Source of the DNA: a virus
IMG/VR virus record: IMGVR_UViG_3300017967_005407
Span: 1 to 64,000 of that record
DNA: 64,000 bases
Strand: one strand, 5' to 3'
Shown here: positions 33,164 to 64,000 of the stretch, one piece after another
Numbering within the stretch: position 1 is the stretch's first letter
How the letters are laid out: the number at the start of each line of letters is the position of its first letter
Position numbers and translations under genes: made by a program
Notes under the pieces: model-generated
Databases searched by the model: none
What the model saw: only the letters and a program-made list of their open reading frames with translations
Told to the model about the DNA's origin: nothing

Positions 33164-34066
33164 ATGGTTAACCAAATTATTTCAGCATATAGATATAATG
33201 TTTTATTTGAAGCAATTGAAAATATATTAGGTATTCCAAGTGGAGAAGGCATTGGCTATAATCAAAATGTTGAAAGTGAACGGCTTCCTAAAACTCGTAT
33301 AGTTTATGCAGAAGACATGAATAAACTATATAATGATTATGTAGCTGTGTATGCACATCAAAATGGAACTATACCTGCAACAATTAGCACTGTATCAGAT
33401 GAAAATGAGATAACAGAGTCTTTGTATTCTGCTTATGAAACACTTTATCCTCTATTGTTTACAAATAGATTTGATGCAGATGCATCGCAAATGGATTTAG
33501 GTGTTTCTGCAGGTATTGATAGTATTAGAACAAGCACATGGGGCGGCACAGGAACACCACAAAGTATCACACACGAATGGAGTGCTACATTTAGCAGTGG
33601 TAATAACCTAAATGGTTTTTTCAATGCAGGCGGCAGTTTTGAAATGTCTTTTTCAATGGGTTCGACTGGTAGTGATGATAAATCACAAGGCTGGGAAACT
33701 ATGTTAAACAACATAGGAAATGTTACAATTGATTATACAGGCACTACTGTTAGCGGTTCTGGTAGCCCAGCAAGCAACACTGGTATATACGATTTAACAA
33801 CTTCTTACGTAAAAATCTTTGAAAAACTAGGAACAGGAATTTATACTAATAACGATTTAGAAATATATGCCAGAAAAGACGGCAATGTAATTTATTTCAA
33901 AACTGTACTTGCTGACGAAAGCATTGGATCAGATCCAGGCGGAGTAGGGCCTATTGACGAAGTTGTTACTGGTAGAATTACTAGTTTTGTAAGACAAAAC
34001 AGACCAGTTGGTAGTTATGTAGAACTGCCTTCTCCATCATATCAAAATATCACTGTTTTCCAATAA
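33164..34066 (+). CDS. Virion structural protein A
   Basis: 300 residues, paralogous to the protein starting at 35062. Shared layout: an N-terminal helical segment (YRYNVLFEAIENILGIPSG), a second helix with AEDMNKLYNDYVAVYAHQNG, a Gly/Ser-rich beta domain with FFNAGGSFEMSFSMG, and an acidic Gly/Pro loop with PIDEVVTGRI near the C-terminus. Such proteins occur beside fibre genes in T4-like marine phages. The precise role is unknown. Its 3' end overlaps the convergent radical SAM gene by 30 bp. Confidence 0.6.
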   Translation: MVNQIISAYRYNVLFEAIENILGIPSGEGIGYNQNVESERLPKTRIVYAEDMNKLYNDYVAVYAHQNGTIPATISTVSDENEITESLYSAYETLYPLLFTNRFDADASQMDLGVSAGIDSIRTSTWGGTGTPQSITHEWSATFSSGNNLNGFFNAGGSFEMSFSMGSTGSDDKSQGWETMLNNIGNVTIDYTGTTVSGSGSPASNTGIYDLTTSYVKIFEKLGTGIYTNNDLEIYARKDGNVIYFKTVLADESIGSDPGGVGPIDEVVTGRITSFVRQNRPVGSYVELPSPSYQNITVFQ

Positions 34067-34996
34067 TTTGCCTTTGTAATCTTTTATCTTTTTAGTTGTT
34101 AAATCTGTTAAACAACTGCAAAATTCATATTGGCATTTAACTGGAACATAAGGTATGTTAAAATTCATGTCGTGTATATTTCCTAAAATAAAATTAGGAA
34201 AACATTGACTACCTATAGTAACATTGCCTTGTCTTGTTATGTTTAATGTGTCTATACCAATCCAACAAGCCCAACCTTTAAATTTATTTTTCTTTTCCAG
34301 TAAAAGTTTTTGTAAGTCTATAATATTATTGTTTTCGTCTACCATTGTAACGCCATAGTTGTCTTTTTTGATACCTGGCAATTTTATTAATGATTGCATC
34401 TGTTTTATTTGTTTAGATGTATAAGGCATAGATTCTGCTTTGTCTAAACTTACACGTAAAGGTTTGTAATCTAATCTTATGTGTTTGTTCAAGTTTTTTA
34501 AACAGTAATCATATTGTTGTAGTGCTAAATCAAAATTTTCAATATCCATACATATTTGAAAATGTATATCAAAACTTCCAGCACATGCATTAAATTTGTC
34601 TACTAAATCTACAATATTAACCTGAGCAACATGAACACTTACAACTACACTATCTATATTGTTTTGATTTTTTTGCCACCAACGTTTTGTTTTATTACCG
34701 TTTGTTAGCAACTGTACTTTGTTTTTTGGACTGATGCTTTTTACATAGGAAAAAAACTCAGGAATTTCTCGCCATATAGTTGGCTCACCACCAAATAAAT
34801 TATACACAGCAAATTTATCTGTATAAGTTGCTGCTATTTTATCAACTAAAAGTTTTGCATTTTCTAATGTAGGAAAATTGTATTTTCCGTCGTGTGCTGC
34901 TGGTTCACAATAATGGCATGCGTAATTACATCTACTACTCATATCCCAATCAATGTAAACAAAATCTCTAGATTGTGCGTAATCAAATTGATCCAT
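34037..34996 (-). CDS. Radical SAM enzyme with C-terminal SPASM-like cysteines
   Basis: 319 residues from the ATG at 34996; an upstream in-frame start would add 29 residues that do not resemble family N-termini. The SAM-binding Fe-S motif is C23-x3-C27-x2-C30 (RCNYACHYC), followed by FGGEPTIW near residue 87. The C-terminal third has further cysteines (GWACWIGID, SQCFPNFILGNI, CQYEFCSC) like a SPASM auxiliary-cluster domain. The family makes 5'-deoxyadenosyl radicals, often to modify peptides. The gene is inserted on the opposite strand between two paralogous structural genes. A late box (35001-35008) ends 4 nt before the ATG. Confidence 0.88.
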   Translation of the reverse strand: MDQFDYAQSRDFVYIDWDMSSRCNYACHYCEPAAHDGKYNFPTLENAKLLVDKIAATYTDKFAVYNLFGGEPTIWREIPEFFSYVKSISPKNKVQLLTNGNKTKRWWQKNQNNIDSVVVSVHVAQVNIVDLVDKFNACAGSFDIHFQICMDIENFDLALQQYDYCLKNLNKHIRLDYKPLRVSLDKAESMPYTSKQIKQMQSLIKLPGIKKDNYGVTMVDENNNIIDLQKLLLEKKNKFKGWACWIGIDTLNITRQGNVTIGSQCFPNFILGNIHDMNFNIPYVPVKCQYEFCSCLTDLTTKKIKDYKGKLLENSDILI

Positions 34997-35000
34997 GCAG

Positions 35001-35008
35001 TATTTAAC
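35001..35008 (-). promoter_or_regulatory. Late-type box immediately before the minus-strand radical SAM gene
   Basis: On the minus strand GTTAAATA is followed by 4 nt and the ATG at 34996. The spacing is the same as at gp25 and at the gene starting at 50009, and there is no ribosome-binding site. Confidence 0.35.
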
Positions 35009-35011
35009 CGG

Positions 35012-35041
35012 TTGACAAAAACTAGGTAAATAAAGTATACT
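35012..35041 (+). promoter_or_regulatory. sigma70-like promoter for structural protein B
   Basis: TTGACA (35012-35017), an 18-nt spacer and TATACT (35036-35041). The predicted start near 35048 leaves a short leader with a CTGGAG ribosome-binding site before the ATG at 35062. A structural gene read from a sigma70-type promoter is unusual for this module. Confidence 0.6.
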
Positions 35042-35061
35042 ATTAAGAAACTGGAGTGTAC

Positions 35062-36117
35062 ATGAGCGGTCAAGGTACAGCAATATTAGCTACTGACTTT
35101 AACAATATAAAAAGTATTTTAGAAAATAATTTTGGTATAGGTAATTATGGATTTAGCACCGGAACTGGTGCTAATGATATTCCTAATGATGTTGTAGGCG
35201 GTAGTGACCCAGCTACAAGTGATACTGTTTTGTCTGCTGATGTTGAAAGACTGTATAGCGTAGGACAACTAATACACTATCATCAAAATGGTGCAGTTAA
35301 AAGTTTATCAAGTGCCACGGGTTATGCAGATTTGCAAGTTGGAGAATTAATAGAATTTGCAGATTGGGGAGATGCTGCTAGTGTACAAGGGTTATATGAT
35401 CTTGCAAATTCTTGTGCTGCATTTAATAGGTATACTACAGAATTCAGCGGCGACTTTAGTGTTGCAAATAATAGATCGCTTCGTTTTTTGTCTGACTGGC
35501 AATCATTAAACATAATCTACATACATACATGGAACAGTGCAAACGAAATGACACACTTTTTCATGACCGGTGGAGAAGTTCGTATGAGTGTAGATATGAT
35601 TAATATAGGCACAGCGGGCGATGCTAGTTACGATAAAAACCTTAATTGGCAAACTATGATGAGTAATATGGGTACAGTCAGGTTATTCTTGCGTCCTAAT
35701 AGTGCCGGAACTGGCTACGAATGGGTTACTGAAAGTTTAAGCGGCGGTGGCACAGGAAGCATAATAGCTGATACTAACAATGCTGGACCTGCTAACAGTG
35801 GCAATGCGTATCTAGCTTATCAAAGAAACGGAGCCGGCTCAATTTATAATGACAATGAAATACGTATTACTGCAACCATATCTGCATCATCAGTGCGTTT
35901 AGAGCTTGATCTAATTGATGGAGATACAGGTACAGGTAATCCAGCAGATGGTCCATCTAGCACACCTATTGATGAACCTGTAACTGGAGATGTAAGAGCA
36001 AATAGTCAAATATCTTATGCAGATAGTACTATTACCTTAAATGATGGTACTGCTGATACAGACTTTACATTACTTGGACCTCAACCTACAACAACTACAG
36101 GTCTTTGGGCAACCTAA
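35062..36117 (+). CDS. Virion structural protein B
   Basis: 351 residues from the ATG at 35062; the GTG at 35056 also reads in frame but lies inside the GGAG ribosome-binding site. It is paralogous to protein A: an N-terminal helix (LATDFNNIKSILENNFGIGN), a second helix ending in IHYHQNGAV, the core FFMTGGEVRMSVDM matching FFNAGGSFEMSFSM of protein A, and PIDEPVTGDVR near the C-terminus. A Gly/Asn-rich loop lies between. Probably a fibre- or baseplate-associated virion protein; no enzymatic motif is visible. Confidence 0.6.
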   Translation: MSGQGTAILATDFNNIKSILENNFGIGNYGFSTGTGANDIPNDVVGGSDPATSDTVLSADVERLYSVGQLIHYHQNGAVKSLSSATGYADLQVGELIEFADWGDAASVQGLYDLANSCAAFNRYTTEFSGDFSVANNRSLRFLSDWQSLNIIYIHTWNSANEMTHFFMTGGEVRMSVDMINIGTAGDASYDKNLNWQTMMSNMGTVRLFLRPNSAGTGYEWVTESLSGGGTGSIIADTNNAGPANSGNAYLAYQRNGAGSIYNDNEIRITATISASSVRLELDLIDGDTGTGNPADGPSSTPIDEPVTGDVRANSQISYADSTITLNDGTADTDFTLLGPQPTTTTGLWAT

Positions 36118-36129
36118 ATCATATATCCG

Positions 36130-36158: not shown

Positions 36159-36180
36159 GTAACCACAATTGGAGGTTTCT

Positions 36181-36528
36181 ATGGACGAGCGTCTTGAAAA
36201 AGCATTAGACATCAGTAACTACATGGTTACATTAAACAATCAAACACGTATTTTAAAAGAAAAGTATTACGAAAATCTTGTGTATTATTTCAATGGTGCT
36301 ACTTTTACTGTTACAAGAGAGTTAATTAACTTTATCAAAGGTTTAATAGATAGTGATCAGCAATCTGTAATTATAAGCGATGATAATGATATTCCTATTG
36401 AGATTGAAAACTTAGAAGAATTTCATCAAAATATTTTGAATACATATTTTACAGCATCAAATGAATACTTTGTTGAATACAACAAAATGAAAAGTAATAG
36501 AAACGTTGAAGGTATTTTAGATATATGA
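36181..36528 (+). CDS. Conserved hypothetical protein
   Basis: 115 residues from the ATG at 36181, chosen over an in-frame TTG at 36169 because GGAGG sits 5 nt upstream. The protein is acidic, mostly helical by appearance, with ILKEKYYENLVYYFNG, FTVTRELINFIKGLID and a C-terminal helix of Asn/Glu/Tyr character. I recognise it only as a small protein type found in marine T4-like phages and cannot give a function. The ATGA overlap couples it to the following glycosyltransferase-like gene. Confidence 0.6.
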   Translation: MDERLEKALDISNYMVTLNNQTRILKEKYYENLVYYFNGATFTVTRELINFIKGLIDSDQQSVIISDDNDIPIEIENLEEFHQNILNTYFTASNEYFVEYNKMKSNRNVEGILDI

Positions 36529-37349
36529 GCAAAGGTGTTTTACTGTTTGCCAAAAGAAACAATGCATTAGATTATATTAAACAAGCTATATTTTGTGCTA
36601 AACGTGTAAAAAAATATTTAGACGTTCCAGTATCAATTGCTACTGATATGGTAGATGATGATAGACTTGATTTTTTTGATCATGTAATTAAATTACAGCC
36701 AAGCAATAATGATAACTCTAGAAAATTTAGAGATGGAAATCTTGCAACTAAGTTGGCAAACTTTAATAATGCAGATAGATATTTTGCATACGAATTAAGT
36801 CCTTATGACGAAACTATCGTAATGGATACAGATTACATACTTGCTAATGATAAACTTAAAAATTGTTTTGGTTCTAAACAAGATTTGATGATGTATAGCA
36901 GTGCTGTAGATTTATGTCATTGGCGTAATTTGACTGAATTTGATAGAGTAACTGATACAAGTATAAAGTTTTATTGGGCTACAGTTGTATATTTTAAAAA
37001 AACAGAAAAAACTAAATGCTTTTTTGATCTTGTGCAACACGTAAAAGAAAATTATACTCATTACAAAAGTTTGTATCAAATAATTAATCCGCTGTATAGA
37101 AATGATTTTGCCTTTAGTATTGCTGCTCATATACTAAATGGATTTACAGAAGATTTAACAATTGCAAGTTTACCAGGTAAAAAATACTTTACTACTGATA
37201 GAGATATATTGCAGAGTATTGACAATGATAAAATGATAATGTTGTTAGAAAAACAAAATCATGTTGGAGAATATACTGCAATAAAAACCAATAAACAAAG
37301 CATACATGTAATGAATAAAATTAGTTTAGAAAGAGTGATTGATGGATAA
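36525..37349 (+). CDS. Glycosyltransferase-like protein (GT-A fold, GT8-like)
   Basis: 274 residues. The N-terminus GVLLFAKRNNALDYIKQAIF starts a Rossmann-like strand-helix. A metal/nucleotide-sugar motif MDTDY lies near residues 99-103 (DETIVMDTDYILAN), preceded by ATKLANF, as in GT8-like enzymes. The order matches the next protein, its distant paralogue. It probably transfers a sugar to a virion or cell-surface component, but substrate and activity are not readable. Membrane segments and signal peptide are absent. Confidence 0.6.
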   Translation: MSKGVLLFAKRNNALDYIKQAIFCAKRVKKYLDVPVSIATDMVDDDRLDFFDHVIKLQPSNNDNSRKFRDGNLATKLANFNNADRYFAYELSPYDETIVMDTDYILANDKLKNCFGSKQDLMMYSSAVDLCHWRNLTEFDRVTDTSIKFYWATVVYFKKTEKTKCFFDLVQHVKENYTHYKSLYQIINPLYRNDFAFSIAAHILNGFTEDLTIASLPGKKYFTTDRDILQSIDNDKMIMLLEKQNHVGEYTAIKTNKQSIHVMNKISLERVIDG

Positions 37350-38181
37350 AAACTTTACTCTCCTAGCTCAAAATAGTGACCAAGATTACGTTAAGCAAGC
37401 GTGTTTATGTGCAATGAGTATACATGCTACAAATCCTGAAAGCAATGTTTCTTTAATTACTAATGACACTGTGCCTGAGAAGTATAAACAACTTTTTGAT
37501 CACATAGTAGAAATACCGTGGGGCGATCACGCAGCAGAAGAAGATTGGAAAATAAGTAATCGTTGGAAAATATATCATGCAACACCGTATGATAATACTA
37601 TGGTGCTTGACACTGATATGTTAATATTACAAAATTTAGATAGATGGTTTACTTATTTAGATAATTATGATCTATATTACACTAGCAATGTGTTAACATA
37701 TAGAGGAGAAACGGTAACAAGTGATTACTATAGAAAAGCATTTACACAATTTGACTTGCCTAATTTATATAGTGGAGTGCATTGGTTTAAAGAACGTCCT
37801 CTAGCAAAAGAATTTTATGCTTGGTTAGAAATGATTACTAATAATTGGCAATTGTTTTACAAACATCATGCAGGAGGCAAAACGTTTCAAAAAAAATGTA
37901 GTATGGATTTAAGTGCAGCTATCGCAGCAAAGATAATGAACTGCGAAAATCAAATCACAAGTAATACTAGTTTTCCAACTTTTGTTCATATGAAACCAAA
38001 GTTACAAAAATGGAATGCTTATGATAGTTTATCATGGCAATCACGTATTAGTGTTTACTTGAACGATGATTTAGATTTGTATGTTGGTAATTTTAAACAA
38101 AGTGGTATATTTCATTATACAGAAAAAGATTTTGCAAAAGACGAAATAATAAACACATACGAAAAGCACTTGGGGATATAA
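37342..38181 (+). CDS. Glycosyltransferase-like protein (GT-A fold, GT8-like)
   Basis: 279 residues from the ATG at 37342 (a TTG one codon earlier is also in frame). It begins FTLLAQNSDQDYVKQACLCA, parallel to its upstream neighbour. It has a DxD motif near residue 90 (NTMVLDTDMLILQNLDRWF) and later YSGVHWFKERPLAKEFYAWL, typical of GT8-like nucleotide-sugar transferases. It overlaps the upstream gene by 8 bp. Two different GT-A proteins in tandem suggest successive sugar additions or two acceptors. Confidence 0.65.
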   Translation: MDKNFTLLAQNSDQDYVKQACLCAMSIHATNPESNVSLITNDTVPEKYKQLFDHIVEIPWGDHAAEEDWKISNRWKIYHATPYDNTMVLDTDMLILQNLDRWFTYLDNYDLYYTSNVLTYRGETVTSDYYRKAFTQFDLPNLYSGVHWFKERPLAKEFYAWLEMITNNWQLFYKHHAGGKTFQKKCSMDLSAAIAAKIMNCENQITSNTSFPTFVHMKPKLQKWNAYDSLSWQSRISVYLNDDLDLYVGNFKQSGIFHYTEKDFAKDEIINTYEKHLGI

Positions 38182-38742
38182 ATGCCAATAGTAGTAAAAA
38201 GTAATACAAAAAAATATATTGAATTTGACGACGAAGGTAATATACAGGCTATAGTGAATACACCAAGCAGTGATCAATACATTCAAGTAGATAGCAAGGA
38301 TATAATAGATTTAATTAAAGGTATTGTACCTACACATCAATATCGAGTAGAGTTTGATATTGTAAAAAAAGATTATGTGTTGAATAAAACTGATTATTGG
38401 GAAGAAGCAAGAAGCTCTGATAGTTTTTTACATAAAATAGAATACAATGAAGATGCTGATGCTACATTAATCCAAAATAACATAAAAAAACAATGGGAAT
38501 TAAAATTAGGTAAAAAAGTTTTACAAAATATGGATAAAATAAATGTCAATATGAAAAACTTGATTACCGGATTTAGTATTACTGATAAAAATAATCCTTA
38601 TAATTTACATTATATTTTAAACTTTGAAACTGATAAATTTACAATTCCTTTTCCTGATAATTTTCAGTTTGACAAATCTCTAGTAAGTGTTTATACTGTA
38701 AGGAGATTAGAGTCTTATTCTCACGAGGTAATCAATGACTGA
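38182..38742 (+). CDS. Hypothetical protein
   Basis: 186 residues, not recognised. It is mixed alpha/beta with YIEFDDEGNIQAIVNTP at the N-terminus, a central segment rich in Lys/Asn/Asp (about 70-120), and HYILNFETDKFTIPFPDNF near the C-terminus. It lies between glycosyltransferase-like genes, with its ATG one base after the previous stop and an 8-bp overlap with the next gene. Translation is therefore coupled and a role in the same pathway is likely. Confidence 0.5.
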   Translation: MPIVVKSNTKKYIEFDDEGNIQAIVNTPSSDQYIQVDSKDIIDLIKGIVPTHQYRVEFDIVKKDYVLNKTDYWEEARSSDSFLHKIEYNEDADATLIQNNIKKQWELKLGKKVLQNMDKINVNMKNLITGFSITDKNNPYNLHYILNFETDKFTIPFPDNFQFDKSLVSVYTVRRLESYSHEVIND

Positions 38743-39652
38743 TATTTTTAGAGTAGTTGATCATGACATAATTTATCTTAGTTATGATGAGCCCAATGCC
38801 GAACAAAACTATGCAGATTTGCTTACAAAAGTTCCTTGGGCTAAACGTGTACACGGTGTAAAAGGAAGTGATGCTGCACACAAAGCTGCTGCAAATGCAA
38901 GTGATACAGAAAGATTTATTACTATCGATGGTGATAATCGAATACGTGAAACTTTTTTAAGCCAAGAAGCAGATTTAAGTGAATATGACTTAACTGATAA
39001 AGTCATAAGTTGGACTGCTTATAATCAAATAAACGGACTTGCATATGGCAACGGCGGTATTAAGTGTTGGCCTAAACATAAAGTTTTAAGTATGAAAACG
39101 CATGAAAACGCAGATCCAGACAATGCACATGCACAAGTAGATTTTTGTTGGGACTTGCAATATATTCAAATGAATGGAACATTCAGTGACATTTACAATA
39201 ATGCAACACCTCAACAAGCATGGAGAGCAGGATTCCGTGAAGGTGTTAAAATGGCACTAGATCAAGGTATAAAACCAGATATTGAAGATTTTAAACGCAA
39301 TCATTGGAAAAATTTGCATAGACTTTGGATATGGTTAATGGTAGGTGCAGATGCTGATAACGGACGTTGGGCAATTTATGGAGCAAGAGAAGGTTTGTAC
39401 AAAACTATGTGTACAGATTGGAACTTTATCAACGTGCGTGATTTTGAATGGTTAAACGATTATTGGAATAATATCGAGGTTAATGAAGAAACATTAGAAG
39501 ATGAAACTCAAAGACTCGGTGATGAACTTATGAATGAATTACAGGCTCCAATTGCATTACAGCCGTTAGATGCAAATCAAAGTAAGTTTTTTAAAACAGT
39601 GTATCAAAATCCTGTACGTAATCCTAAGTTTATCGATAAGGAACTTGGATGA
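38735..39652 (+). CDS. GT-A-like phage protein (paralogue of the gene at 43039)
   Basis: 305 residues. The N-terminus IIYLSYDEPNAEQNYADLL, then VHGVKGSDAAHKAA and ERFITIDGDNRI (about residues 60-75), gives a nucleotide-sugar-transferase-like order in which DGD takes the place of DxD. AYGNGGIKCWPKHKVL follows. The same blocks recur in the gene at 43039 (FISYKEPNADENY, IHGVKGIHQAH, IVDGDAQI, EYGYGGIKLFPREET). Related proteins occur in T4-like cyanophages without known activity. Coupled by ATGA to the following radical SAM gene. Confidence 0.55.
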   Translation: MTDIFRVVDHDIIYLSYDEPNAEQNYADLLTKVPWAKRVHGVKGSDAAHKAAANASDTERFITIDGDNRIRETFLSQEADLSEYDLTDKVISWTAYNQINGLAYGNGGIKCWPKHKVLSMKTHENADPDNAHAQVDFCWDLQYIQMNGTFSDIYNNATPQQAWRAGFREGVKMALDQGIKPDIEDFKRNHWKNLHRLWIWLMVGADADNGRWAIYGAREGLYKTMCTDWNFINVRDFEWLNDYWNNIEVNEETLEDETQRLGDELMNELQAPIALQPLDANQSKFFKTVYQNPVRNPKFIDKELG

Positions 39653-41022: not shown

Positions 41023-41621
41023 AACAAAGGCAAAATTTCTTCAGCTTCTGGCCAACGTTCGTCTTCCATTTCTTTGTAGTAATTATCTACCTTAAACTTC
41101 CAAAAACTTTGTATAGTTCCTCTATATTCTAGTTCAATCGGTTCTTCTAAAAATCCTTGCTTACGCCATTCTGGAGCCCAACGTGTGTGTACAGCTCGTT
41201 GTTTTGCAATTGGGCTAGGGTGAGTGCTTATGTACAAAGGATTATCTCTGCCGCAATGCTCAATACATGCAGGAATTAAAAATTGCGCACTTGGGTGATC
41301 ATGTGGCCGCGGCGCACCTCTTAAGTTTCTTAAAGTGTTATGATTGCGTACACCTTGTACTAGATGTCCTAGCATACAAATTCTAGCACCTATGCGATAA
41401 GCGTTTCGTCCTAATATTTCTAAGCCTGTTAACTTATGGCTTACAACACAGCCTACAATATTTTCATAGTTGTATAATAAGAATAAAGTTGAATCTTTTT
41501 CTTTTTCAAGAGATGATAAAAGCATATCGGCGTTACTATTGTTGTAGTAACGCTTTTTTTCTGCTTCAATAAAAAAGTTTGTTAAATTTTGTGAACCATC
41601 ATAGGTTTCAATTTTCCACAT
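41019..41621 (-). CDS. GNAT-like acetyltransferase (tentative)
   Basis: 200 residues. FLLYNYENIVGCVVSHKLTG, then YRIGARICMLGHLVQGVRN, resembles the beta4-beta5 core of GNAT N-acetyltransferases. LIPACIEHCGRDNPLYISTH and KQGFLEEPIELEYRGTIQSF fit the final strands. A clear Q/RxxGxG/A acetyl-CoA loop is not visible, so the call is cautious. The gene is read from a promoter inside the 3' end of the adjacent fibre gene with no room for a leader. Transferring an acyl group to a sugar or amino group would fit the neighbouring glycosyltransferase-like genes. Confidence 0.45.
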   Translation of the reverse strand: MWKIETYDGSQNLTNFFIEAEKKRYYNNSNADMLLSSLEKEKDSTLFLLYNYENIVGCVVSHKLTGLEILGRNAYRIGARICMLGHLVQGVRNHNTLRNLRGAPRPHDHPSAQFLIPACIEHCGRDNPLYISTHPSPIAKQRAVHTRWAPEWRKQGFLEEPIELEYRGTIQSFWKFKVDNYYKEMEDERWPEAEEILPLF

Positions 41622-41627
41622 ACTTGC

Positions 41628-41656
41628 ATTATAGTATAAAAATTATCCTAAGTCAA
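41628..41656 (-). promoter_or_regulatory. sigma70-like promoter giving a leaderless transcript
   Basis: On the minus strand TTGACT (41651-41656), a 17-nt spacer and TATAAT (41628-41633) are followed by exactly 6 nt and the ATG at 41621. The expected +1 is the A of the ATG. The -35 box lies in the last codons of the fibre gene. Confidence 0.65.
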
Positions 41657-44944: not shown

Positions 44945-45165
44945 TAGATTTAGATATTTTAAGTTTAAGACAATTGCAAAAAGAAAGTGCTAGAGCATTG
45001 AGTACTATGCAAGCAACTAATAACAATATTTGGCAGTTTAACAAACAAGCACATCACAATAGTCAGCAATGGTACAAAGCAGTAATACAATGGTATATCG
45101 ATGAGTATGGAGATTTGCCTAGTCAAACTGGACCTGGTAAAAAAGTAAAGTTAGTTATGGAATGA
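44941..45165 (+). CDS. Small hypothetical protein
   Basis: 74 residues, not recognised. It looks helical (DILSLRQLQKESARALSTMQ, then a Trp/Gln/His-rich stretch with QQWYKAVIQWYIDEYG) and ends in a Gly/Lys tail. ATGA overlaps at both ends tie it to the methyltransferase-like gene and the next small gene. It has no cysteine, so it is not an obvious substrate for thioether-forming radical SAM enzymes. A carrier or adaptor role is possible but unsupported. Confidence 0.5.
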   Translation: MIDLDILSLRQLQKESARALSTMQATNNNIWQFNKQAHHNSQQWYKAVIQWYIDEYGDLPSQTGPGKKVKLVME

Positions 45166-56472: not shown

Positions 56473-57716
56473 GTAAAACATTTTGTCCTATGCCATTTAC
56501 TCATTTGAATATTAAACAAGAAGGCAAAGTTAGTGCCTGTTGGCGTTTTCCTGATAAATTAGGCGATTATAGAACTCAAACATTACAAGAAATTTGGAAC
56601 GATGACGCATTGCAAAAACTAAGACACGACAGTTTAAATGATGTGCAAAATATTGGATGTAGAAGCTGTTGGGATATGGAGAAAAGTGAAAGTATTAGCA
56701 CACGTATGCAGTGCAGTCAAACTTTTCCTTATGTCAACCAACCGTTTGTAGAAGAACATATTCAAGAAGATTATAGCTTTCCAACAAAATATATACGCAG
56801 TGTTGAAATACGTTTCGATAATATTTGCAATTTAATGTGTAGGCATTGTAGTCCTGATTATAGTAGTGTTTGGGAACAAGCAGTCAAGCGTGATCCTACA
56901 CTAATGGACAAGATGCAAGAATATGGAACTTATAGAAAAGATGTTAACCATGTAAGTCTTACACAAGAAATGGTAGACGAAATAGCAAATGAGCTGGCAC
57001 CTAACTTAGAAGAAATAATGATTGCCGGCGGCGAACCATTGTATCATGACAAGCACTACAAATTTCTTGAAGACATGCAACCATATGCAAGTAACATACG
57101 CTTGAGTTACAACACTAACCTAAACATATTAGAATACAAAGGTAAAAGTGTGTTAGACTTGTGGAAAAATTTCAAAGAAATTTGGTTGCGTATTAGTATA
57201 GATGGCGATCCTAGTTGTTATGAATATGTACGTGCAGCAGGTAATCTACACAAAGTTGAAGAAAACATAAAAAAACTAAACGAAACACTAATTAATACAG
57301 ATATAAGTGCTACTTGTACTGTGAGTTTGTACAACATAACAAGATTTACTAACATTGTAAAATATTTTTGCGGATTAGATGTTTATTTTCACACAAGTTT
57401 GGTGCAATATCCAGAAGCTCTAAACATAAAATTGCTTCCACAAGAATTAAAAGATTCTATTACACAAGAATTTTGGCATTGGTATGAAAATGAAGCTGAA
57501 GATTATGTTAAAAGTGTTAGTAAAAAAGTAAAAGTACAAAAACAACTAGACAGAATTAAAAAATTTGCTACAAATACACTCAATTACATGAACAGCGAAG
57601 ATAGACATGACAAATGGCATTTGTTTTTAGATTACAGTGCCGCTTTAGATAGCTATCACGGCACTGATTTGTTCGAGAGTTACTCCGAATATTCTTCAAA
57701 ATTAAATAAATCGTAA
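56469..57716 (+). CDS. Radical SAM protein with N-terminal auxiliary-cysteine (twitch-like) domain
   Basis: 415 residues. The N-terminal pattern is FCPMPFTHLNIKQEGKVSAC then GCRSCWDMEKSESISTRM; the CC pair of its relatives is CW here. The core motif is C120-x3-C124-x2-C127 (ICNLMCRHC), followed by IMIAGGEPLYHDKHYKFL near residue 188. The C-terminus (LDSYHGTDLFESYSEYSS) is a variant of the family signature. The 3' end overlaps the convergent gene by 37 bp, with both strands coding. Confidence 0.88.
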   Translation: MSKTFCPMPFTHLNIKQEGKVSACWRFPDKLGDYRTQTLQEIWNDDALQKLRHDSLNDVQNIGCRSCWDMEKSESISTRMQCSQTFPYVNQPFVEEHIQEDYSFPTKYIRSVEIRFDNICNLMCRHCSPDYSSVWEQAVKRDPTLMDKMQEYGTYRKDVNHVSLTQEMVDEIANELAPNLEEIMIAGGEPLYHDKHYKFLEDMQPYASNIRLSYNTNLNILEYKGKSVLDLWKNFKEIWLRISIDGDPSCYEYVRAAGNLHKVEENIKKLNETLINTDISATCTVSLYNITRFTNIVKYFCGLDVYFHTSLVQYPEALNIKLLPQELKDSITQEFWHWYENEAEDYVKSVSKKVKVQKQLDRIKKFATNTLNYMNSEDRHDKWHLFLDYSAALDSYHGTDLFESYSEYSSKLNKS

Positions 57717-58969
57717 TCTTTTTGCAAATCATCTAATATATCATTATATTTTTTGAACTTTTGTAAATCGCTTGCTGGAACTTTGATATCACAATATAAG
57801 TTTGAGTTTATTTTTGCAACACGTTTAATATGACTTGCTGTAAGTGTGTTTATTTGTTGTAATCCAAACTGTAATGCATTGCTTCTAAACCCTGGAATGT
57901 CACCAATTGCATGATATATACCAGTAATATTGAATTTTTCTAATTCGTTAATAATTGCAGCATCATCAAACAACATATTTGCAAGTGCATATGAATGATT
58001 TTTTGTTTTGTATATTTGCCATGCATCGTATATAGCATCTTTGCTACCAAATTCTTGTAACAGCACATTCCATTGTTTCTCTATAATGTTATCTGAGCTA
58101 TTATTCCAAAAATCAAAATCTCCATCACCTGCGTCATTGCACAAAGAAAGAGTTTTAACTAATCCTTTTTTTGTACCATCCCAATTTTTTGTAATTAGCT
58201 TTTTCCAAAGTAGATTTCGATCAAAAATATCAAAGTGTAAATAGTTTTCTACATTGTCTATATACTTACTACCTAGTATAAATGCTTTAAACATGCTACA
58301 AGGGCCTACAACAGTGTTTATAGCGCCCTGTACGGTACTCAAATGTGTTTTATCAGTGCATATAGCTTCTGTATTATAAAGAAAAAACACCCCTTTATCC
58401 TGATCATTTGCGTGCCTTGGATTACGTGTTGTAAGAAGTTTAATAAACAAATCAGTAAGGTTTGTATTAATAATAGGAAGTTTAGTAAAATGATTTAACT
58501 CGTCATTCCATGCCTGTGGATTTTGTGTTGCTTTAGAATCTAATAACTGTTTAATTATTACGTTATTGATTTTTTTACTATCTGATTTTATGTAATCAGC
58601 AATCTTGGGTTTTCCTTTTTGTCGCCAATGTTTTAAATTTATTATCTGTATAGTTGGAGATTTTTTGTCGTGTATTACACTCCACTCTGTTTTATGACTT
58701 TCTATATCATATATACACATTTTATGAATATGCCAAAAATCGTGATGATACATTCCAAACCAAGTCACAATTAGATATTCAGTTTTTTTGTCAGCAATTA
58801 TATCTAATATGTCATCTACTGATTCTGCCCATACAAATGGATGCTGCTCAACACTTTGTTTTACATAATGTCCACGTTGATAATACAACATCCAGCTTTG
58901 ATAAAGGTCTCGATCAATATTGTTTTTTATATTTTTAGGTACAACAACGGCATGTTGTATATTAAGCAT
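57680..58969 (-). CDS. Unknown protein, distant homologue of the gene at 48617
   Basis: 429 residues from the ATG at 58969, which overlaps the upstream stop; an in-frame start at 59023 lies inside that gene. Not recognised. It shares with the gene at 48617 a block around HFDIFDRNLLWKKLITKNWD, preceded by a hydrophobic stretch with VVGPCSMFKAFILGSKYI. The N-terminal segment has TEYLIVTWFGMYHHDFWHIH. The co-occurrence of two such proteins with radical SAM genes suggests a shared pathway. It is read after the Asp/Asn-hydroxylase-like gene as one unit. Confidence 0.5.
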   Translation of the reverse strand: MLNIQHAVVVPKNIKNNIDRDLYQSWMLYYQRGHYVKQSVEQHPFVWAESVDDILDIIADKKTEYLIVTWFGMYHHDFWHIHKMCIYDIESHKTEWSVIHDKKSPTIQIINLKHWRQKGKPKIADYIKSDSKKINNVIIKQLLDSKATQNPQAWNDELNHFTKLPIINTNLTDLFIKLLTTRNPRHANDQDKGVFFLYNTEAICTDKTHLSTVQGAINTVVGPCSMFKAFILGSKYIDNVENYLHFDIFDRNLLWKKLITKNWDGTKKGLVKTLSLCNDAGDGDFDFWNNSSDNIIEKQWNVLLQEFGSKDAIYDAWQIYKTKNHSYALANMLFDDAAIINELEKFNITGIYHAIGDIPGFRSNALQFGLQQINTLTASHIKRVAKINSNLYCDIKVPASDLQKFKKYNDILDDLQKDYDLFNFEEYSE

Positions 58970-59696
58970 AAATTTTTCTCCAGTGATGGTAACTTTCTTC
59001 AATACGTTTGTTCCAACCGTCACCTAACCTGCCGTGTGCAATAATATGATATCTATCCTCATTGCTCCAATTATATACACAATGTATATTATAGAGATTT
59101 AACTTGATAATACGTCCTTGTTCCCAAGGCAAATAGCCTATTTCGTCCATGTAGAAATGGCATTCTTCTGGATTGTTTAATGCTATATTAGTAGGACCGA
59201 TATGATTTTCGTCTAGTGTAATACTATCTCTATGTGGAATAATCCAGCCTCCTGGAGATAATTTCATAATACGTATTCTGTCATACTGTTTGTAATCAAA
59301 TCTGTTTTCAAAAAAATCTCTAATAGTAGGACACCAGTCTGCTACGTCGGTCCACCTGTATGGTGCGTCTTTTCTGTCATTGTATCCGTAAGTATGATGA
59401 GATTCTGTGTGTACACTACTCAAGCCATGGATGCACAAACTACTCCAACCGCTGTGACTTTCATGATGTCTATGAGGAACATAGTGTTTTTCTAATCTTT
59501 TAGCTTCCCAAAGCATTTTCTCCCAATCAGCATCTTCAAAACCTGTAATAGGTAAAAAGTCTAGTTGATCACTCATGTGTATTTCACGAGATGTTTTTAA
59601 GTTTTGTGGATATTTTGGTTTAGCTGGAAATTTATTACGTTCTGCAAATATCTCTGGCGGTTCGTTGCTTACTCCCCATTCTGTAATTGTATACAT
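58962..59696 (-). CDS. Aspartyl/asparaginyl beta-hydroxylase-like 2OG-Fe(II) oxygenase
   Basis: 244 residues. The iron ligands are H155-x-D157 (WIIPHRDSITLDENHIGPTN) and H205 (KLNLYNIHCVYN), with R215 (SNEDRYHIIAHG) in the 2-oxoglutarate position; RIRIMKLSPGG precedes the first motif as in the family. These enzymes hydroxylate protein side chains or free amino acids, so a virion or host protein is a plausible target. An AAAAGGA ribosome-binding site precedes the ATG, and a late box on the minus strand (59726-59732) lies upstream. Confidence 0.82.
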   Translation of the reverse strand: MYTITEWGVSNEPPEIFAERNKFPAKPKYPQNLKTSREIHMSDQLDFLPITGFEDADWEKMLWEAKRLEKHYVPHRHHESHSGWSSLCIHGLSSVHTESHHTYGYNDRKDAPYRWTDVADWCPTIRDFFENRFDYKQYDRIRIMKLSPGGWIIPHRDSITLDENHIGPTNIALNNPEECHFYMDEIGYLPWEQGRIIKLNLYNIHCVYNWSNEDRYHIIAHGRLGDGWNKRIEESYHHWRKIYA

Positions 59697-59741: not shown

Positions 59742-59759
59742 CTGCGGAGAATAGAAAAT

Positions 59760-60743
59760 ATGAGCCTTGTTGCATATCATAAATTACACAAAAAAATAGA
59801 TGACTTATCCGAATGGGGAATGTTTTTTAGAAAAGTAAACTTTCCAAAAAGAACAACAGACAATTGTAGATGTAAAAGAGATTTGAAATATATTTTGTGG
59901 GGCATAGCTAGATGTATTTTGCATCAAGATCCAAAATTAATTAACGAGATTTCTCATAAATTTGTAAAAAATAAAAAACTTGTCCTAACTGATCATAGAG
60001 TAGAATTAGCTGTTTATGCTTATATAGAAGGTGAGTTATACAAACTACTTAAACACCATAGAGATGATGTTGAAATTATGATAGAAGCAATGCAGTTGCT
60101 AAAAGATAATTTTAAAAAACTAGAAGAAGCAAACTACACTAGAGAATTTAGTGATTTGATTAAAGAAAGAAAAACTACATTTACATGGTTAGATAAAAAA
60201 GTTACGCAAGAAACAGTTGAAGATATATTGTTAGACTTACACATGTACGCACCTAGTAAACAAAATAGAATGCCTTACTATCTTGATGTTTTAGATTGGA
60301 AGGACCCTGAGTTGAGACATAATATTTTTGAATGGTGCTGGAGAGACCTTAAACATGATGCACAAACAGATAAAGGAAATCCTCAAACATTAGCACCTTA
60401 TCTATTTTGTTTTACTCCACGGATATCTAATAATCCTGACGATAATGCTTTGGAAGAAGCAATGATTGAAATAGGTATAGCCAGTAGCTTTATTATTTGG
60501 AATGCACAAAGTAGAGGATTAAGTACAGGTTATTGTGCATGTATTCAAGATCCTACAATGATAAGTAATGCATTAGGACGTCCGAATAATCAGGTTAAAT
60601 TGTTATTAGGTATGGGCTACAAAGATGAGAACGCTAACAGTTATTTTGATCCAAGAATACAGGCCGATAAATTGCTACCAAGTGATAATTCATTCCATAA
60701 ATCTAATCAGGAAAATATAGGATCTTATATCGTATGGCATTAA
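59760..60743 (+). CDS. Nitroreductase-like flavoprotein
   Basis: 327 residues. A helical N-terminal ~145 residues of unknown role precede a nitroreductase-type domain. Its markers are LHMYAPSKQNRMPYYLDVLD (FMN-binding Ser-x-x-N region), AMIEIGIASSFIIWNAQSRG and LSTGYCACIQDP (central helix and loop), and QVKLLLGMGYKDENANSYF (C-terminal strand). Such FMN enzymes reduce or dehydrogenate small molecules or azoline-type rings in peptides. The gene overlaps the next radical SAM gene by 10 bp. Confidence 0.78.
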   Translation: MSLVAYHKLHKKIDDLSEWGMFFRKVNFPKRTTDNCRCKRDLKYILWGIARCILHQDPKLINEISHKFVKNKKLVLTDHRVELAVYAYIEGELYKLLKHHRDDVEIMIEAMQLLKDNFKKLEEANYTREFSDLIKERKTTFTWLDKKVTQETVEDILLDLHMYAPSKQNRMPYYLDVLDWKDPELRHNIFEWCWRDLKHDAQTDKGNPQTLAPYLFCFTPRISNNPDDNALEEAMIEIGIASSFIIWNAQSRGLSTGYCACIQDPTMISNALGRPNNQVKLLLGMGYKDENANSYFDPRIQADKLLPSDNSFHKSNQENIGSYIVWH

Positions 60744-61900
60744 CAAAAACATTGTGCAGTGCAGCATGGTATGATATAAATGTTGACTTTGGAGCAAAAA
60801 CATTAAGCCATTGTTGTAAAAGTCAACGTGAATCTTTTCCTGAGGTTGTTACAGAAGACTTTTTTAACAATAGTTTACACATACAAAAATTACGTGATGA
60901 TTTAGTAAATGGTATAGAAAATCCTGCATGTAATTTTTGTTGGAATAGTTATAAAGAAACTGGAACTGCATACAGAGATTTTAAAAACAAATGGATAGAT
61001 AATTCTAGTGTTAACTACAATGTAAATAATATAGAAATTACACTTGATAATATTTGTGATATGGCATGTATATATTGTGATGCTACTAGTAGCAGTAGGA
61101 TTGCACAAGAATTAGGACATGAGCATGTTATGAATATTCCTAATGATGCTCATATGCAAACTTTCATAAATTGGTTTGAGCATGTAGCATTAAAACAAAA
61201 GTTTATACCTTTGAGTTTTTTAGGTGGCGAAATTAGTTACAGTAAAAACTTTTATAAATTTATGAATATGATTTTGCAAAAAAAGTCTATTTACAATAGC
61301 AGAATAAATTTTAGTGTATTAACCAATGGCAATGCAACTGAAAAAAATCAAAAAAAACTTTTAGCATTATTTGATAGTTTGCCTGAAAAATGGGGAATTA
61401 GTTTAGGCATCAGTAACGAATCTACTGGAGTTGTTGCTGAGTCAGTAAGATATGGACTGAATTGGAATCGTTTTCAAAACAACTTCATTGATTATATTAA
61501 TCATCCTAGATTGGTAAATGTAACACTTGCTCCTACTCCTAATATTTTTACTGTAAAGCATATGTATGAGTATTTTGATTGGGTCATAAACGAATTGCGG
61601 AAAACAGATACCAAACTTGCAATTTTTGGAAATTGGGTAAACTGGCCAAACGAACTAGATCCAAGTAAATTAGATGATGCATATAAGATACATGTGGATA
61701 AATGCTTGCAATTAATCAAAACAAATAAAGATTTATTTTTAGATGCGGGACAATATAATCATACGTACAAATGGTTAGAACAATTAAAAGCACGTATAGG
61801 TACACAACAGCAAAATGATGTTGAATTAGATAATTGGATACGTAAAACTGCAATACAAAAGAAAGATAACAGTCTTTTGAATTTAAGAGAGTATATATGA
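60734..61900 (+). CDS. Radical SAM protein with N-terminal auxiliary cysteines
   Basis: 388 residues. The N-terminal pattern is LCSAAWYDINVDFGAKTLSH then CC and ACNFCWNSYKETGTAYRDFK, a divergent form of the family. The core motif is C108-x3-C112-x2-C115 (ICDMACIYC), followed by LSFLGGEISYSKNFYKF near residue 165 (GGEI for GGEP). FSVLTNGN and GISLGISNE fit the later strands. The usual family signature at the end is missing. It starts inside the nitroreductase-like gene and is probably cotranslated. Confidence 0.82.
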   Translation: MALTKTLCSAAWYDINVDFGAKTLSHCCKSQRESFPEVVTEDFFNNSLHIQKLRDDLVNGIENPACNFCWNSYKETGTAYRDFKNKWIDNSSVNYNVNNIEITLDNICDMACIYCDATSSSRIAQELGHEHVMNIPNDAHMQTFINWFEHVALKQKFIPLSFLGGEISYSKNFYKFMNMILQKKSIYNSRINFSVLTNGNATEKNQKKLLALFDSLPEKWGISLGISNESTGVVAESVRYGLNWNRFQNNFIDYINHPRLVNVTLAPTPNIFTVKHMYEYFDWVINELRKTDTKLAIFGNWVNWPNELDPSKLDDAYKIHVDKCLQLIKTNKDLFLDAGQYNHTYKWLEQLKARIGTQQQNDVELDNWIRKTAIQKKDNSLLNLREYI

Positions 61901-63162
61901 CAAAGGAATGGAAAAACCCAGATTGGTTCCCTGCAAAAGGCAATAGAGCGTGTTTGCTTAAATGGAGTCAAGTTACATTAAGTTTATGGGATAACACTAG
62001 TAGTAGTTGTCACAGAAATGGAATGCATCAAATAGGTGAGGATTTTGATTTTCATAATGAACCAAAATGGGTAGAACATAGAGAAAAAATGTTAAATGGC
62101 GATTGGCCTAGTGATGGATGGGGTTGCGAACATTGTCGAGATCAAGAAGCTATAGGCGGAACTAGCGATAGGATGCAATGGCTTAGTAATAACAATAACA
62201 AAAGATATGTTCCAAAAGAACTTTTTAATAATCCAACTGCCACTCGTATAAAACCTACACAAGTAAGTATGCATTTTAATAATAAATGTAATTTAAAGTG
62301 TGTTTATTGTGGGCCTCAGTATAGCAGTGCTTGGGTGAAAGAAATGCAAAAATATGAACCTAAACATAGTTTTATACAAGATGTAGATATAAAAGAAAAA
62401 ACGTACGAACAAAGACTGGAAAAATTCTACAAATGGATGGAAAACAATTATAGCAGTCTTAAAGCGTTTGATTTATTAGGCGGTGAACCTTTTATACAAC
62501 AAGAAACATGGGACTGTGTTGATTGGATGATAAAGCATCCTAATCCGGAATGTGATATAGAAATATACAGCAATATGGAAGTAAAACCTAAACTTTTTAA
62601 AAGAGGATGCGAAAAATTAAAAGAACTTAGCAAAACAGTCAAAGAAGTTGTATTTGTAATTAGTGTAGATACTTTTGGACCAGAAAGTGAGTATATAAGA
62701 TTTCCACATAATTGGGAAGTTATGGAAGATAATATAAATTATTTAATTTATGAATGCCCAGAAATTATTCCAACTATGAATTGGACTGTTACTAATCTTA
62801 GTCTAAAAACTACTCCGGCATTAGTCCGTAAAGTTATTGAATGGAATAAACATCGGTATGTAAGTGTAAATTATAATAGATGTCACGATCCACATTTTTT
62901 TGATCCAAAAATTATGCCAGAAGGGTTTTACGATGATGTAATTGATGAACTAAAAGAATTAAATCAAATAATGTATCAAGGAAACAACAGTCCATATATG
63001 GATTATGTAAACACTATTTTCAAAGAAATAAACGAAACACCTGCAGATTACGAAGCTATAAAAATGCTTAAATGGCGCCTAACAGAACTTGATAAACGTA
63101 GAGGCACAAATTGGCAAGAAACATTTCCTTGGTTAACAACTGTTGGACATAATAGAATTTGA
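61897..63162 (+). CDS. Radical SAM protein with N-terminal auxiliary cysteines
   Basis: 421 residues. The N-terminal pattern is ACLLKWSQVTLSLWDNTSSS followed by CHRN, then GCEHCRDQEAIGGTSDRM. The core motif is C131-x3-C135-x2-C138 (KCNLKCVYC), followed by FDLLGGEPFIQQETWDCV near residue 192. The C-terminus KRRGTNWQETFPWLTTVG is a clear copy of the family signature. It closes the run of coupled genes; only 34 bp, holding a promoter, separate it from the last gene. Confidence 0.87.
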   Translation: MTKEWKNPDWFPAKGNRACLLKWSQVTLSLWDNTSSSCHRNGMHQIGEDFDFHNEPKWVEHREKMLNGDWPSDGWGCEHCRDQEAIGGTSDRMQWLSNNNNKRYVPKELFNNPTATRIKPTQVSMHFNNKCNLKCVYCGPQYSSAWVKEMQKYEPKHSFIQDVDIKEKTYEQRLEKFYKWMENNYSSLKAFDLLGGEPFIQQETWDCVDWMIKHPNPECDIEIYSNMEVKPKLFKRGCEKLKELSKTVKEVVFVISVDTFGPESEYIRFPHNWEVMEDNINYLIYECPEIIPTMNWTVTNLSLKTTPALVRKVIEWNKHRYVSVNYNRCHDPHFFDPKIMPEGFYDDVIDELKELNQIMYQGNNSPYMDYVNTIFKEINETPADYEAIKMLKWRLTELDKRRGTNWQETFPWLTTVGHNRI

Positions 63163-63190
63163 TTGACAAAATAATTAAAGATAGTATACT
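63163..63190 (+). promoter_or_regulatory. sigma70-like promoter giving a leaderless transcript
   Basis: TTGACA (63163-63168), a 16-nt spacer and TATACT (63185-63190), directly after the previous stop codon. Exactly 6 nt separate the -10 from the ATG at 63197, so transcription should begin at the start codon. Confidence 0.7.
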
Positions 63191-63196
63191 ATAGAT

Positions 63197-64000
63197 ATGA
63201 CTGAAGATTTAAAATGGTCTAATTATGACTTTACTAAAATACCTTTTAATGACATTATCCAAGTGGGACAACGAACGCTCCTCTACCGAGATATCTTTAC
63301 GGTATCTTGGTTACTAGGAAGATTTTGTAACTATAGGTGTAGTTACTGTTGGCCTTATGCAAGAAGTGACAGAAAAGATCATAGACCAACTGAGTTGTGT
63401 CTAGCAACTATAGATGAGATAAAGAAGCAAGCACGTGATAACGGTTTTAACAGTTTCCATTTTAGTCTGTCTGGCGGCGAGCCTACCTTTCATCCAGGGT
63501 ACTTGGACATACTTGGTCACTTGGCTAATGATGTGCCTAATACTAATTATACTTCCATACATATGACATCAAACTGCTCACGCCCAATGAAGTGGTTTGA
63601 AGATTATGTAGAAAAAGCAAAACCTTTCCATAGAGCAAGTATAACGGCTAGTTTGCACACAGAACACTTAAATACAAAGGAGAAGATGCAGGACTTTGCA
63701 GATAAATTAATCCTGTGTCAAGAACACGATGTACAAGTTACAATTAATATGGTCATGGTTCCGGAATGGTTTGAAAGAGATTGGGAAAACGCCCTCTTCT
63801 TCCACGAGCAAGGAATCAACGTTACACTTAAACCCCAATCGGATCCGACTGCGTCAAAAGTGGTTGATGGATACACTGGGGATATGCTTAAAAGACTCTG
63901 GAACGGAATGCCACAAAGAGCCTACACAGAAACAAAACGCAAGTGGGAAGGTAGACCCAAACCAAACTTCAAAATTCCTGTAGGTATTATGGGCAAACCT
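63197..64000 (+). CDS. Radical SAM protein, partial (runs off the window)
   Basis: 268 codons are present without a stop. The core motif is C44-x3-C48-x2-C51 (FCNYRCSYCWP), then FHFSLSGGEPTFHPGYLDIL near residue 95 and ASLHTEHLNTKEKMQDFADK. It differs from the other twelve: no auxiliary cysteines before the core, and its later part is visibly richer in G+C than the preceding genes, which suggests a different origin. Its C-terminal domain is outside the window. It is read from its own sigma70-like promoter. Confidence 0.88.
   Translation, partial: MTEDLKWSNYDFTKIPFNDIIQVGQRTLLYRDIFTVSWLLGRFCNYRCSYCWPYARSDRKDHRPTELCLATIDEIKKQARDNGFNSFHFSLSGGEPTFHPGYLDILGHLANDVPNTNYTSIHMTSNCSRPMKWFEDYVEKAKPFHRASITASLHTEHLNTKEKMQDFADKLILCQEHDVQVTINMVMVPEWFERDWENALFFHEQGINVTLKPQSDPTASKVVDGYTGDMLKRLWNGMPQRAYTETKRKWEGRPKPNFKIPVGIMGKP

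Follow-up and report, generated by a model that had tools for sequence, protein, structure and literature searches.

The window analysed here, positions 1 to 64,000 of the 76,597-base IMG/VR record IMGVR_UViG_3300017967_005407 from an uncultured virus of bacteria, carries an island of about 33 kb in which a long series of genes for radical S-adenosylmethionine (SAM) enzymes forms one block beside tail-fibre genes. The island occupies a fixed site, its genes keep their order in related viruses, and three of its radical SAM genes, 45503 (r0), 50009 (r1) and 63197 (r10; genes are named by their lower coordinate), have relatives in Bdellovibrionota that lie among glycan genes. It is probably a pathway that builds or alters an unusual sugar structure. 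The explanation that we favour, with a probability of roughly 40%, is a soluble pathway for the construction and tailoring of a glycan, with a core from a Bdellovibrionota-like donor and a product that is most likely carried on the fibres of the phage itself.

In this pathway, placed in the tail-fibre (host-recognition) locus of uncultured large myoviruses, glycosyltransferases of the GT8 and GT-A types would synthesize the chain, and the radical chemistry of the SAM enzymes would change its sugars through deoxygenation, epimerisation or alterations at C-C or C-N bonds, with the dehydrogenase, the oxygenases and the flavin reductases as possible helpers. The finished glycan would most likely be joined to the fibre proteins in the cytoplasm. 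Fibre genes surround the enzyme genes, mostly in the same direction, and we infer sugar as the substrate, the fibre as the recipient and late co-expression. If this is true, a large and mostly uncharacterised set of oxygen-sensitive enzymes for sugar (or protein) tailoring would be added to those known. With the viral series and its Bdellovibrionota core both linked to glycan loci, there is now a pathway that can be tested and has a cellular equivalent, as well as an initial hint at the donor from which these uncultured phages obtained it, perhaps their host.

A radical SAM gene series at a fixed site

The sequence-only reading had named 13 radical SAM genes in the window, and all of them belong to this superfamily. 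The CxxxCxxC motif occurs in exactly 14 of the 68 tiled open reading frames (ORFs) of the record, namely in these genes (at 34930 on the minus strand and at 40063, 45566, 46651, 47650, 50444, 51801, 54135, 55501, 56826, 61055, 62287 and 63326) and in a fourteenth beyond the window (65101-66234, motif at 65410, PF04055 match at 65404-65877). The positions it gave for the cores point to the right genes but are gene starts, since the motif sits elsewhere. On the DNA of the record PF04055 matched 14 places, 11 of them above the cut-off and 13 starting inside the window; in protein scans 12 of the 14 genes exceeded the Pfam cut-off of 29.5 bits, so that the profile search assigned most of them. Gene 39649 stays just below (28.6 bits, E 1.9e-6) and is nevertheless a safe call because it passes the cut-off of NF033640 (318 bits, cut-off 170). 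The weakest call is 46597 (19.8 bits, E 9.6e-4), a likely member by its motif and sub-threshold profile matches.

Using 50009 as a query, relatives were found to be encoded in hundreds of public viral stretches (382), the best 80 at 82-100% identity. Among these 80 loci, 32 lie on records of at least 50 kb. Thirty of these longer IMG/VR records contain between 4 and 22 PF04055 matches, with a median of 13, and at least 14 were counted in 13 of the thirty; the other two, G007 and G035, contain 8 and 9. As the records were chosen by r1, they are biased to carriers of radical SAM genes, and some are near-duplicates; when records were chosen by a baseplate gene, 8 of 38, most of them fragments, had a PF04055 match. 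The size of the battery, which had been taken as an oddity, is thus not exceptional, and a genome with 12 such genes is already in print (PMC5332604). Large sets had also been put forward as an argument against a special system in case they were routine in relatives with a known function: they are routine, but no known function was found.

The published genome is TARA_ERS488813_N000010, a T4-like marine genome of 183 kb described in 2017 and comparable, by its description, in virus type and in the number of radical SAM genes. It is treated there in terms of iron-sulphur metabolism, and no site, order or pathway is described in the passages concerned (PMC5332604). This treatment would suit radical SAM genes that serve as general iron-sulphur auxiliary genes boosting host metabolism. 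We consider this very improbable for the island, as none of the 14 genes reaches an NCBIfam equivalog cut-off and six reach the subfamily cut-off of NF033640 only.

The site itself is preserved without an insert in the related record G033, where a homologue of the tail-fibre-like gene of the left flank (31629..33143, +) is directly followed by homologues of 67482 and 69029. With 27159 as left and 71908 as right marker, 67 records (the 68 viral handles minus G002) were inspected, 19 of which contain both. In 18 of the 19 the markers lie 37-62 kb apart on records with 4-16 PF04055 matches (counted per record, not per interval); in G033 they lie 11.5 kb apart on a record with none. In the record of the window the markers are separated by 44 kb. 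Of the 19 records, three had been chosen without a radical SAM gene: G025 and G029 carry the island and G033 does not. A second left marker, 970-1983, was found in 37 of the 67 records. Two of the 27159 homologues, otherwise conserved, are interrupted by a stop codon (G057:C1:40553-41140 and G059:C1:33449-34036).

Gene order was followed by clustering the ORFs of 94 stretches, made up of 83 loci and eleven longer ones; the record of the window is among them, and some contigs were entered twice (G007/L127, G035/L173). Around 50009 the order is family 2 (glycosyltransferase), family 3 (methyltransferase-like), family 4 (74 residues), r0 and r1, followed, where present, by r9, r7, the short-chain dehydrogenase, r13 and r10. 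In L110-L189 gene pairs from ten families stand in this order 1598 times and are reversed 17 times, as counted from first occurrences on the plus strand in loci that share ancestry. In the locus L092/L093 (G035) a 1008-residue ORF at 20266-23292 includes a stretch of the GT-A family and has no separate family-3 gene beside it, which makes a fusion possible.

Within the island of the window neighbouring plus-strand genes touch or overlap at 24 of 28 joints, and 31 of the 36 genes are co-oriented with the tail genes. Fibre genes also occur in the related loci as part of a reverse-strand cassette consisting of a tail-fibre-like gene (families 14 and 39) with families 12, 19, 44 and 46: for 26 of 33 fibre copies a cassette partner lies on the same strand within four genes, and the other seven copies are near locus ends, four of them with family 12 on the opposite strand. 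The mostly co-oriented and overlapping block, the fixed site, the kept order and the cellular counterpart described below bear out the earlier proposal of a dedicated biosynthetic or modification system.

Insertions into this order vary between records and comprise genes for PP-loop/QueC proteins, AMP-binding enzymes, NodU-type carbamoyltransferases, TauD, desaturases, nitroreductases and Asp/Arg hydroxylases (97 representatives scanned). The AMP-binding enzyme, the carbamoyltransferase, PP-loop/QueC, the desaturase and TauD could contribute to a diffusible small molecule that acts on the host or its neighbours; we regard this as decidedly unlikely, as no assembly-line enzyme or exporter was seen among the scanned proteins and site and strand tie the island to the fibre genes. 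Carbamoyltransferase- and QueC-like enzymes also occur in phage DNA modification. Hypermodification of the phage's own DNA would account for their presence in some relatives and is the least probable of the explanations considered, because many radical SAM genes for a single base are unlikely and no nucleotide hydroxymethylase or kinase was among the Pfam matches of the scanned island proteins, the record being a fragment.

In kind, the island is a putative host-recognition cluster with radical SAM cassettes, a type of cluster that in marine T4-like phages is situated between VrlC and the neck gene gp14. The host recognition clusters of pelagimyophages are likewise large, variable islands among structural genes that combine tail fibres with glycosyltransferases, most commonly of the GT8 type, and those of two close pelagimyophages differ by radical SAM cassettes (PMC7029224). 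In contrast, the island studied here is dominated by radical SAM genes, has a nearly fixed order and belongs to another lineage, its wedge protein being nearest to jumbo myoviruses (among the best 30 of 62 matching records). We assume a marine habitat for the group. In bacteria, adjacent radical SAM genes stand beside glycosyltransferase, epimerase and rfbC genes on a plasmid of Brachyspira hyodysenteriae (PMC4267127), a block that resembles the island in gene content. The terms "radical SAM" and "SPASM" do not occur in PMC11360552. To judge from literature searches, four points are new: the fixed order, the empty site, the context of glycan genes, and a core that is shared with Bdellovibrionota and was probably captured from there.

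The Bdellovibrionota counterpart and its glycan context

Bdellovibrionota, the phylum of Bdellovibrio-type predators, is represented in our comparison by the metagenome-assembled genome (MAG) G071, titled Bdellovibrionales, and its phylum; phylum names of cellular genomes were deduced. At E<=1e-30, NF033640 matched in 126 of 368 genomes of this phylum; in the phylum of G070 the same threshold gave 4 of 396, and in that of G069 a threshold of E<=1e-25 gave 3 of 398. Both low figures count the centre genomes themselves, in which the contigs with hits resemble phage. The scans covered three phyla at differing E-values, and in most genomes no more than four candidates were scored. In 20 Bdellovibrionota stretches taken from the surroundings of such hits, r10 was found in 12, r1 with more than 480 bits in 13, and r0, r1 and r10 together in 10, on contigs of up to 1.6 Mb for r1 with r10 and up to 0.94 Mb for the trio.

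Viral and Bdellovibrionota proteins of the trio share 40-67% identity: 40-49% for r0 (45503..46600, +, PF04055 40.4 bits, cysteine cluster at the C-terminus), 55-64% for r1 (50009..51409, +, NF033640 427 bits, N-terminal twitch) and 57-67% for r10 (63197..64000, continuing to 64330 in the record, +, PF04055 57.3 bits). In a tree of r1 with 51402 as outgroup, the viral rows (21, thinned from 84) group with two MAG contigs in a single clade (100/94), which lies within the 20 Bdellovibrionota rows and has the chromosomal locus L227 as nearest relative (100/97). In the unrooted tree of r10 the viral rows and one MAG contig again form a single clade (99/99). The nesting of r1 and the single viral clade of r10 fit one capture of the core by phages, probably from the Bdellovibrionota side, given long branches and a sampling of three phyla.

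Hits in a Neisseriaceae and an Acidimicrobiaceae MAG (L190, L191) were rejected as a cellular home, as these are likely mis-binned phage contigs by their gene content, which is that of the phage island. The Acidimicrobiaceae contig (L191, L207-L208, G070:C81) has 80 kb and combines a long radical SAM series with families of the phage island.

The locus L227 is chromosomal, since it contains RNase HII, L19, TrmD, RimM, PheS and PheT, and its island lies beside pheT. After r1, the GT-A gene and r10 this island has homologues of 33164, 36169, 36525, 37339 and 38735, so that a fibre gene and glycosyltransferases stand together. Apart from the trio, the radical SAM loci of Bdellovibrionota share the GT-A, methyltransferase-like and short-chain dehydrogenase families with the viral island; they differ by mixed strands and polysaccharide neighbours, and fibre genes were seen in L227 only.

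The neighbours of the core in these genomes point to glycans as the substrate class. Among 95 neighbours lacking a viral homologue there were 17 Glycos_transf_2, 4 Polysacc_synt_2, 3 Epimerase, 1 Epimerase_2 and 1 Bac_transf proteins, whereas none of the first 25 families of 95 control ORFs was a glycosyltransferase family with at least two members (Glycos_transf_2 at most 1 of 95). The neighbours were taken from 117, without the twelve ORFs of L227 and a number of others that were short or truncated at an end; the controls were drawn at random from the 146 ORFs of nine stretches on contigs of eight of these genomes, not all of which contribute to the 95 neighbours, and the 17 transferases are pooled over stretches. 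In L202, from another phylum, genes of the N-terminal-twitch type accompany what by eye are an ABC-2 permease, an ABC ATPase, RmlC, RmlD and methyltransferases, which on this reading is an O-antigen-type cluster containing the family. In the same locus, an ORF of 854 residues (L202:8579-11143) looks by eye as if an O-antigen-type ABC ATPase had been fused to an N-twitch radical SAM domain.

A further-reaching idea, which we consider quite unlikely, is that this widespread phage group coats its fibres with a glycan whose non-standard sugars are produced slot by slot by the ordered radical SAM series, that the module is shared with Bdellovibrionota as the hosts, and that predators and their own phages would thus have a radical-tailored surface chemistry in common.

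Substrate and recipient

Island proteins other than radical SAM enzymes had been described as glycosyltransferase-, methyltransferase-, oxygenase-, short-chain dehydrogenase- and flavin-type. The glycosyltransferases, the dehydrogenase, the nitroreductase (flavin) and an Asp/Arg hydroxylase were recovered; methyltransferase 44057 is so named by motif reading alone. Two GT8-like and two GT-A-like genes make up the glycosyltransferases of the island. The GT-A-like product of 38735..39652 (+, family 2) has no Pfam match itself, and a chromosomal member of its family passes PF00535. Its AlphaFold2 model (mean predicted local distance difference test, pLDDT, 79; nine sequences) matches GT-A enzymes on top (best Z 10.9 over 141 residues, 3.1 A), and nucleotidyltransferases of like fold follow lower. 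Searches of 38735, 44057, 41019, 53254 and 48581 against PDB profiles returned nothing except a match of E 0.78 for 44057; 53254 and 44057 are labelled by motif, and 41019 and 48581 are left without assignment. None of ten island proteins outside the radical SAM superfamily matched a PHROG, and among ten further proteins the radical SAM genes matched radical SAM families.

The predicted structure of r1 (pLDDT 81) is a radical SAM fold, for which DesII, SkfB, viperin-like enzymes, CteB, BlsE, anSME and SuiB are tied near Z 11. The fold names no substrate because enzymes for sugars, nucleosides and peptides tie, and it was rejected as decisive. With Foldseek the peptide maturase SkfB is the best match, with CteB, SuiB and anSME close behind, and SPASM matches above the cut-off occur in three genes of the record. 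It is therefore conceivable that the enzymes mature proteins in the manner of maturases for ribosomally synthesized and post-translationally modified peptides (RiPPs), acting on side chains of the fibres or other virion proteins around the island, or on the 74-residue protein of family 4 (44941..45165, +, 68 of 94 stretches), without any glycan. In all 63 loci that have both genes, the one for this small protein lies upstream of r0, in 32 of them directly. On the other hand, no recognisable precursor was found: the small protein is conserved over its whole length and its alignment shows no variable core, the trait of a RiPP precursor, and it has no match in Pfam, NCBIfam or PHROGs. Among the ORFs of at least 80 residues tiled in the 20 Bdellovibrionota stretches none was seen to be homologous to it, though a shorter copy could escape. 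Viperin, DesII and BlsE fit r1 equally well, and the cellular context is one of glycosyltransferases. We regard maturation of proteins as doubtful, yet as a near rival. In 54 of 68 members of the 74-residue family the first possible start codon is TTG.

A simple hydropathy rule identified no membrane-like segment in any of the 36 island ORFs, so that a complete lipid-carrier pathway is not contained in the island; nor was a flippase, polymerase, exporter or lipid-carrier transferase among the Pfam matches of the scanned island proteins. Together with the touching joints and the orientation shared with the tail genes, this favours a glycan pathway that runs in the cytoplasm and modifies fibre proteins. 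The same observations bear on the second near rival, in which the island remodels the O-antigen or capsule of the host during infection and excludes competing phages. Glycosyltransferases of pelagimyophages, from a similar region, have been proposed to change the host surface against competing phages (PMC7029224), and the cellular homologues reside in polysaccharide loci. Neither flippase, polymerase, exporter nor membrane-bound transferase was recognised here, though host machinery could supply them, and in 80 related viral loci 21 of 1523 ORFs, some of them desaturase-like, have at least two membrane-like segments. Remodelling of the host surface would make use of the same enzymes and appears doubtful as well, slightly more so than protein maturation.

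Several points weigh against the soluble glycan pathway with fibres as recipients. The SPASM and twitch enzymes whose function is known work mostly on peptides and proteins, and peptide maturases match the r1 model as well as DesII and BlsE do. No gene for nucleotide-sugar synthesis was identified in the island within the window. The cellular neighbours are envelope-polysaccharide genes, which suit a product on the host surface and one on the virion equally well, and in L213 the trio has, by eye, only two family-2 glycosyltransferase genes as glycan neighbours. Seven of the 20 Bdellovibrionota stretches lack an r1 above 480 bits, and a fibre cassette, traced by the family-18 gene, was present in 1 of 358 Bdellovibrionota genomes; a cassette common in the phylum was accordingly rejected. 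ORFs with at least two membrane-like segments are also scarce in the Bdellovibrionota stretches (20 of 358, as opposed to 29 of 163 in controls), and their absence from the island is therefore a weak pointer only. Finally, the cellular sampling comprised three bacterial phyla and 14 control genomes.

Enzyme types and further genes of the island

The cut-off of NF033640, a family of radical SAM proteins with an N-terminal twitch, is passed by six of the 14 genes: 39649..41022 (318 bits), 50009, 51402..52715 (372 bits), 55111..56472 (296 bits), 56469..57716 (294 bits) and 61897..63162 (248 bits). Two more, 60734..61900 (159.5 bits; PF04055 29.9 bits) and 65101 (145.6 bits), lie close to it. All eight are on the plus strand. 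The model itself has no named substrate, and in the record its members stand in series with classical SPASM-type genes. The cysteines C9, C27, C90 and C93 ahead of the core are invariant in 16 of 16 aligned rows, eight of them from the record. The eight enzymes are probably active, since N-terminal cysteines, CxxxCxxC and GGE are all invariant in them. Both 55111 and 56469 also match SPASM PF13186 (34 and 41.6 bits). The core comes first and cysteines follow in 45503, 47605..48627 (+, PF04055 44.7 bits), 54003..55130 (+, PF04055 45.8 bits, C-terminal cysteine cluster) and 63197. A remaining radical SAM gene, 34037..35083, lies on the minus strand between two fibre genes (PF04055 40.5 bits). 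Recent tandem duplication was rejected, the best pair, 50009 and 51402, being 35% identical and the other 39 listed pairs 19-33%; the paralogues are old.

Gene 46597..47322 (+) encodes a short radical SAM core without a C-terminal cysteine set or SPASM domain and is directly followed by 47315..47605 (+), the free SPASM-like ORF of the sequence-only reading. It is indeed present, recognised by five cysteines in SPASM-like spacing alone, with no Pfam (including PF13186) or NCBIfam match at E<=0.01. A split by sequencing error is unlikely because the pair recurs in L110-L113 and the SPASM sequence of L113 clearly diverges. By eye, a similar arrangement of two overlapping ORFs is seen at L229:4363-5513 in a chromosomal island of G524.

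The remaining genes are on the plus strand unless stated otherwise. The island is preceded by a tail-fibre or virion-type protein of family 16 (33164..34066), conserved at this position and with a 28% homologue in L227, and a second one (35056..36117) has homologues of 28-29% identity in the corresponding position of G007 and G006. A small conserved protein of 119 residues (family 18, 36169..36528) occurs in 20 of 94 stretches. It is followed by the two GT8-like paralogues, 36525..37349, whose family profile (A6) matches glycogenin at E 4.6e-4, and 37339..38181, which shares family and profile; neither has a Pfam match. The conserved protein 38182..38742 has 26-34% homologues at the same place in G007, G006, G029, G028 and G019.

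Behind 39649, two genes lie on the minus strand: 41019..41621, a conserved enzyme-like protein that resembles acyltransferases by eye only and has no Pfam, PHROG or PDB match, and the adjoining tail-fibre-like gene 41643..42968 (family 39), recognised by sequence repeats and family membership. The GT-A-like paralogue of family 2 is encoded at 43039..44070 (alignments A2 and A4) and the methyltransferase-like protein of family 3, with a motif seen by eye, at 44057..44944 (69 of 94 stretches). Between the 74-residue protein and r0 a conserved 117-residue protein is inserted (family 23, 45162..45515, 11 of 94 stretches). Gene 48581..49981 is glycosyltransferase-like by eye only, has no profile match and has 22-31% homologues in L216.

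The short-chain dehydrogenase (family 8, 52712..53269) is assigned by its profile (A13), which matches structures of this class at E 6.1e-12. It precedes 53254..54090, similar to 2-oxoglutarate-dependent oxygenases by a conserved HxD...H only (alignment A11; no Pfam, PHROG or PDB match). On the minus strand follow a conserved protein (57680..59023, 4 of 94 stretches, no Pfam or PHROG match) and the Asp/Arg hydroxylase, a 2-oxoglutarate oxygenase of the aspartyl/asparaginyl hydroxylase type (58962..59696, PF05118 35.3 bits, cut-off 22.6). A nitroreductase-family flavoprotein is encoded at 59760..60743 (PF00881 31.7 bits, cut-off 23.5), and a second nitroreductase was found by Pfam at 66814, past the window.

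The left part of the window contains a T4-type baseplate region and tail-fibre-like genes. The product of 10100-13525 shares 32-37% identity with baseplate wedge proteins, mostly of jumbo myoviruses such as Salicola SCTP-2 and Atu_ph07 (best 30 of 62 matching records). At the DNA level positions 1-25000 gave no match in the phage collection, and a protein search with r1 in the same collection returned two matches of 25%, in the Vibrio phages K566 and K567. The baseplate wedge gene is followed by a single gene of 4528 codons (13543-27129), the counterparts of which encode 5050 residues in G014 and 5254 in G033.

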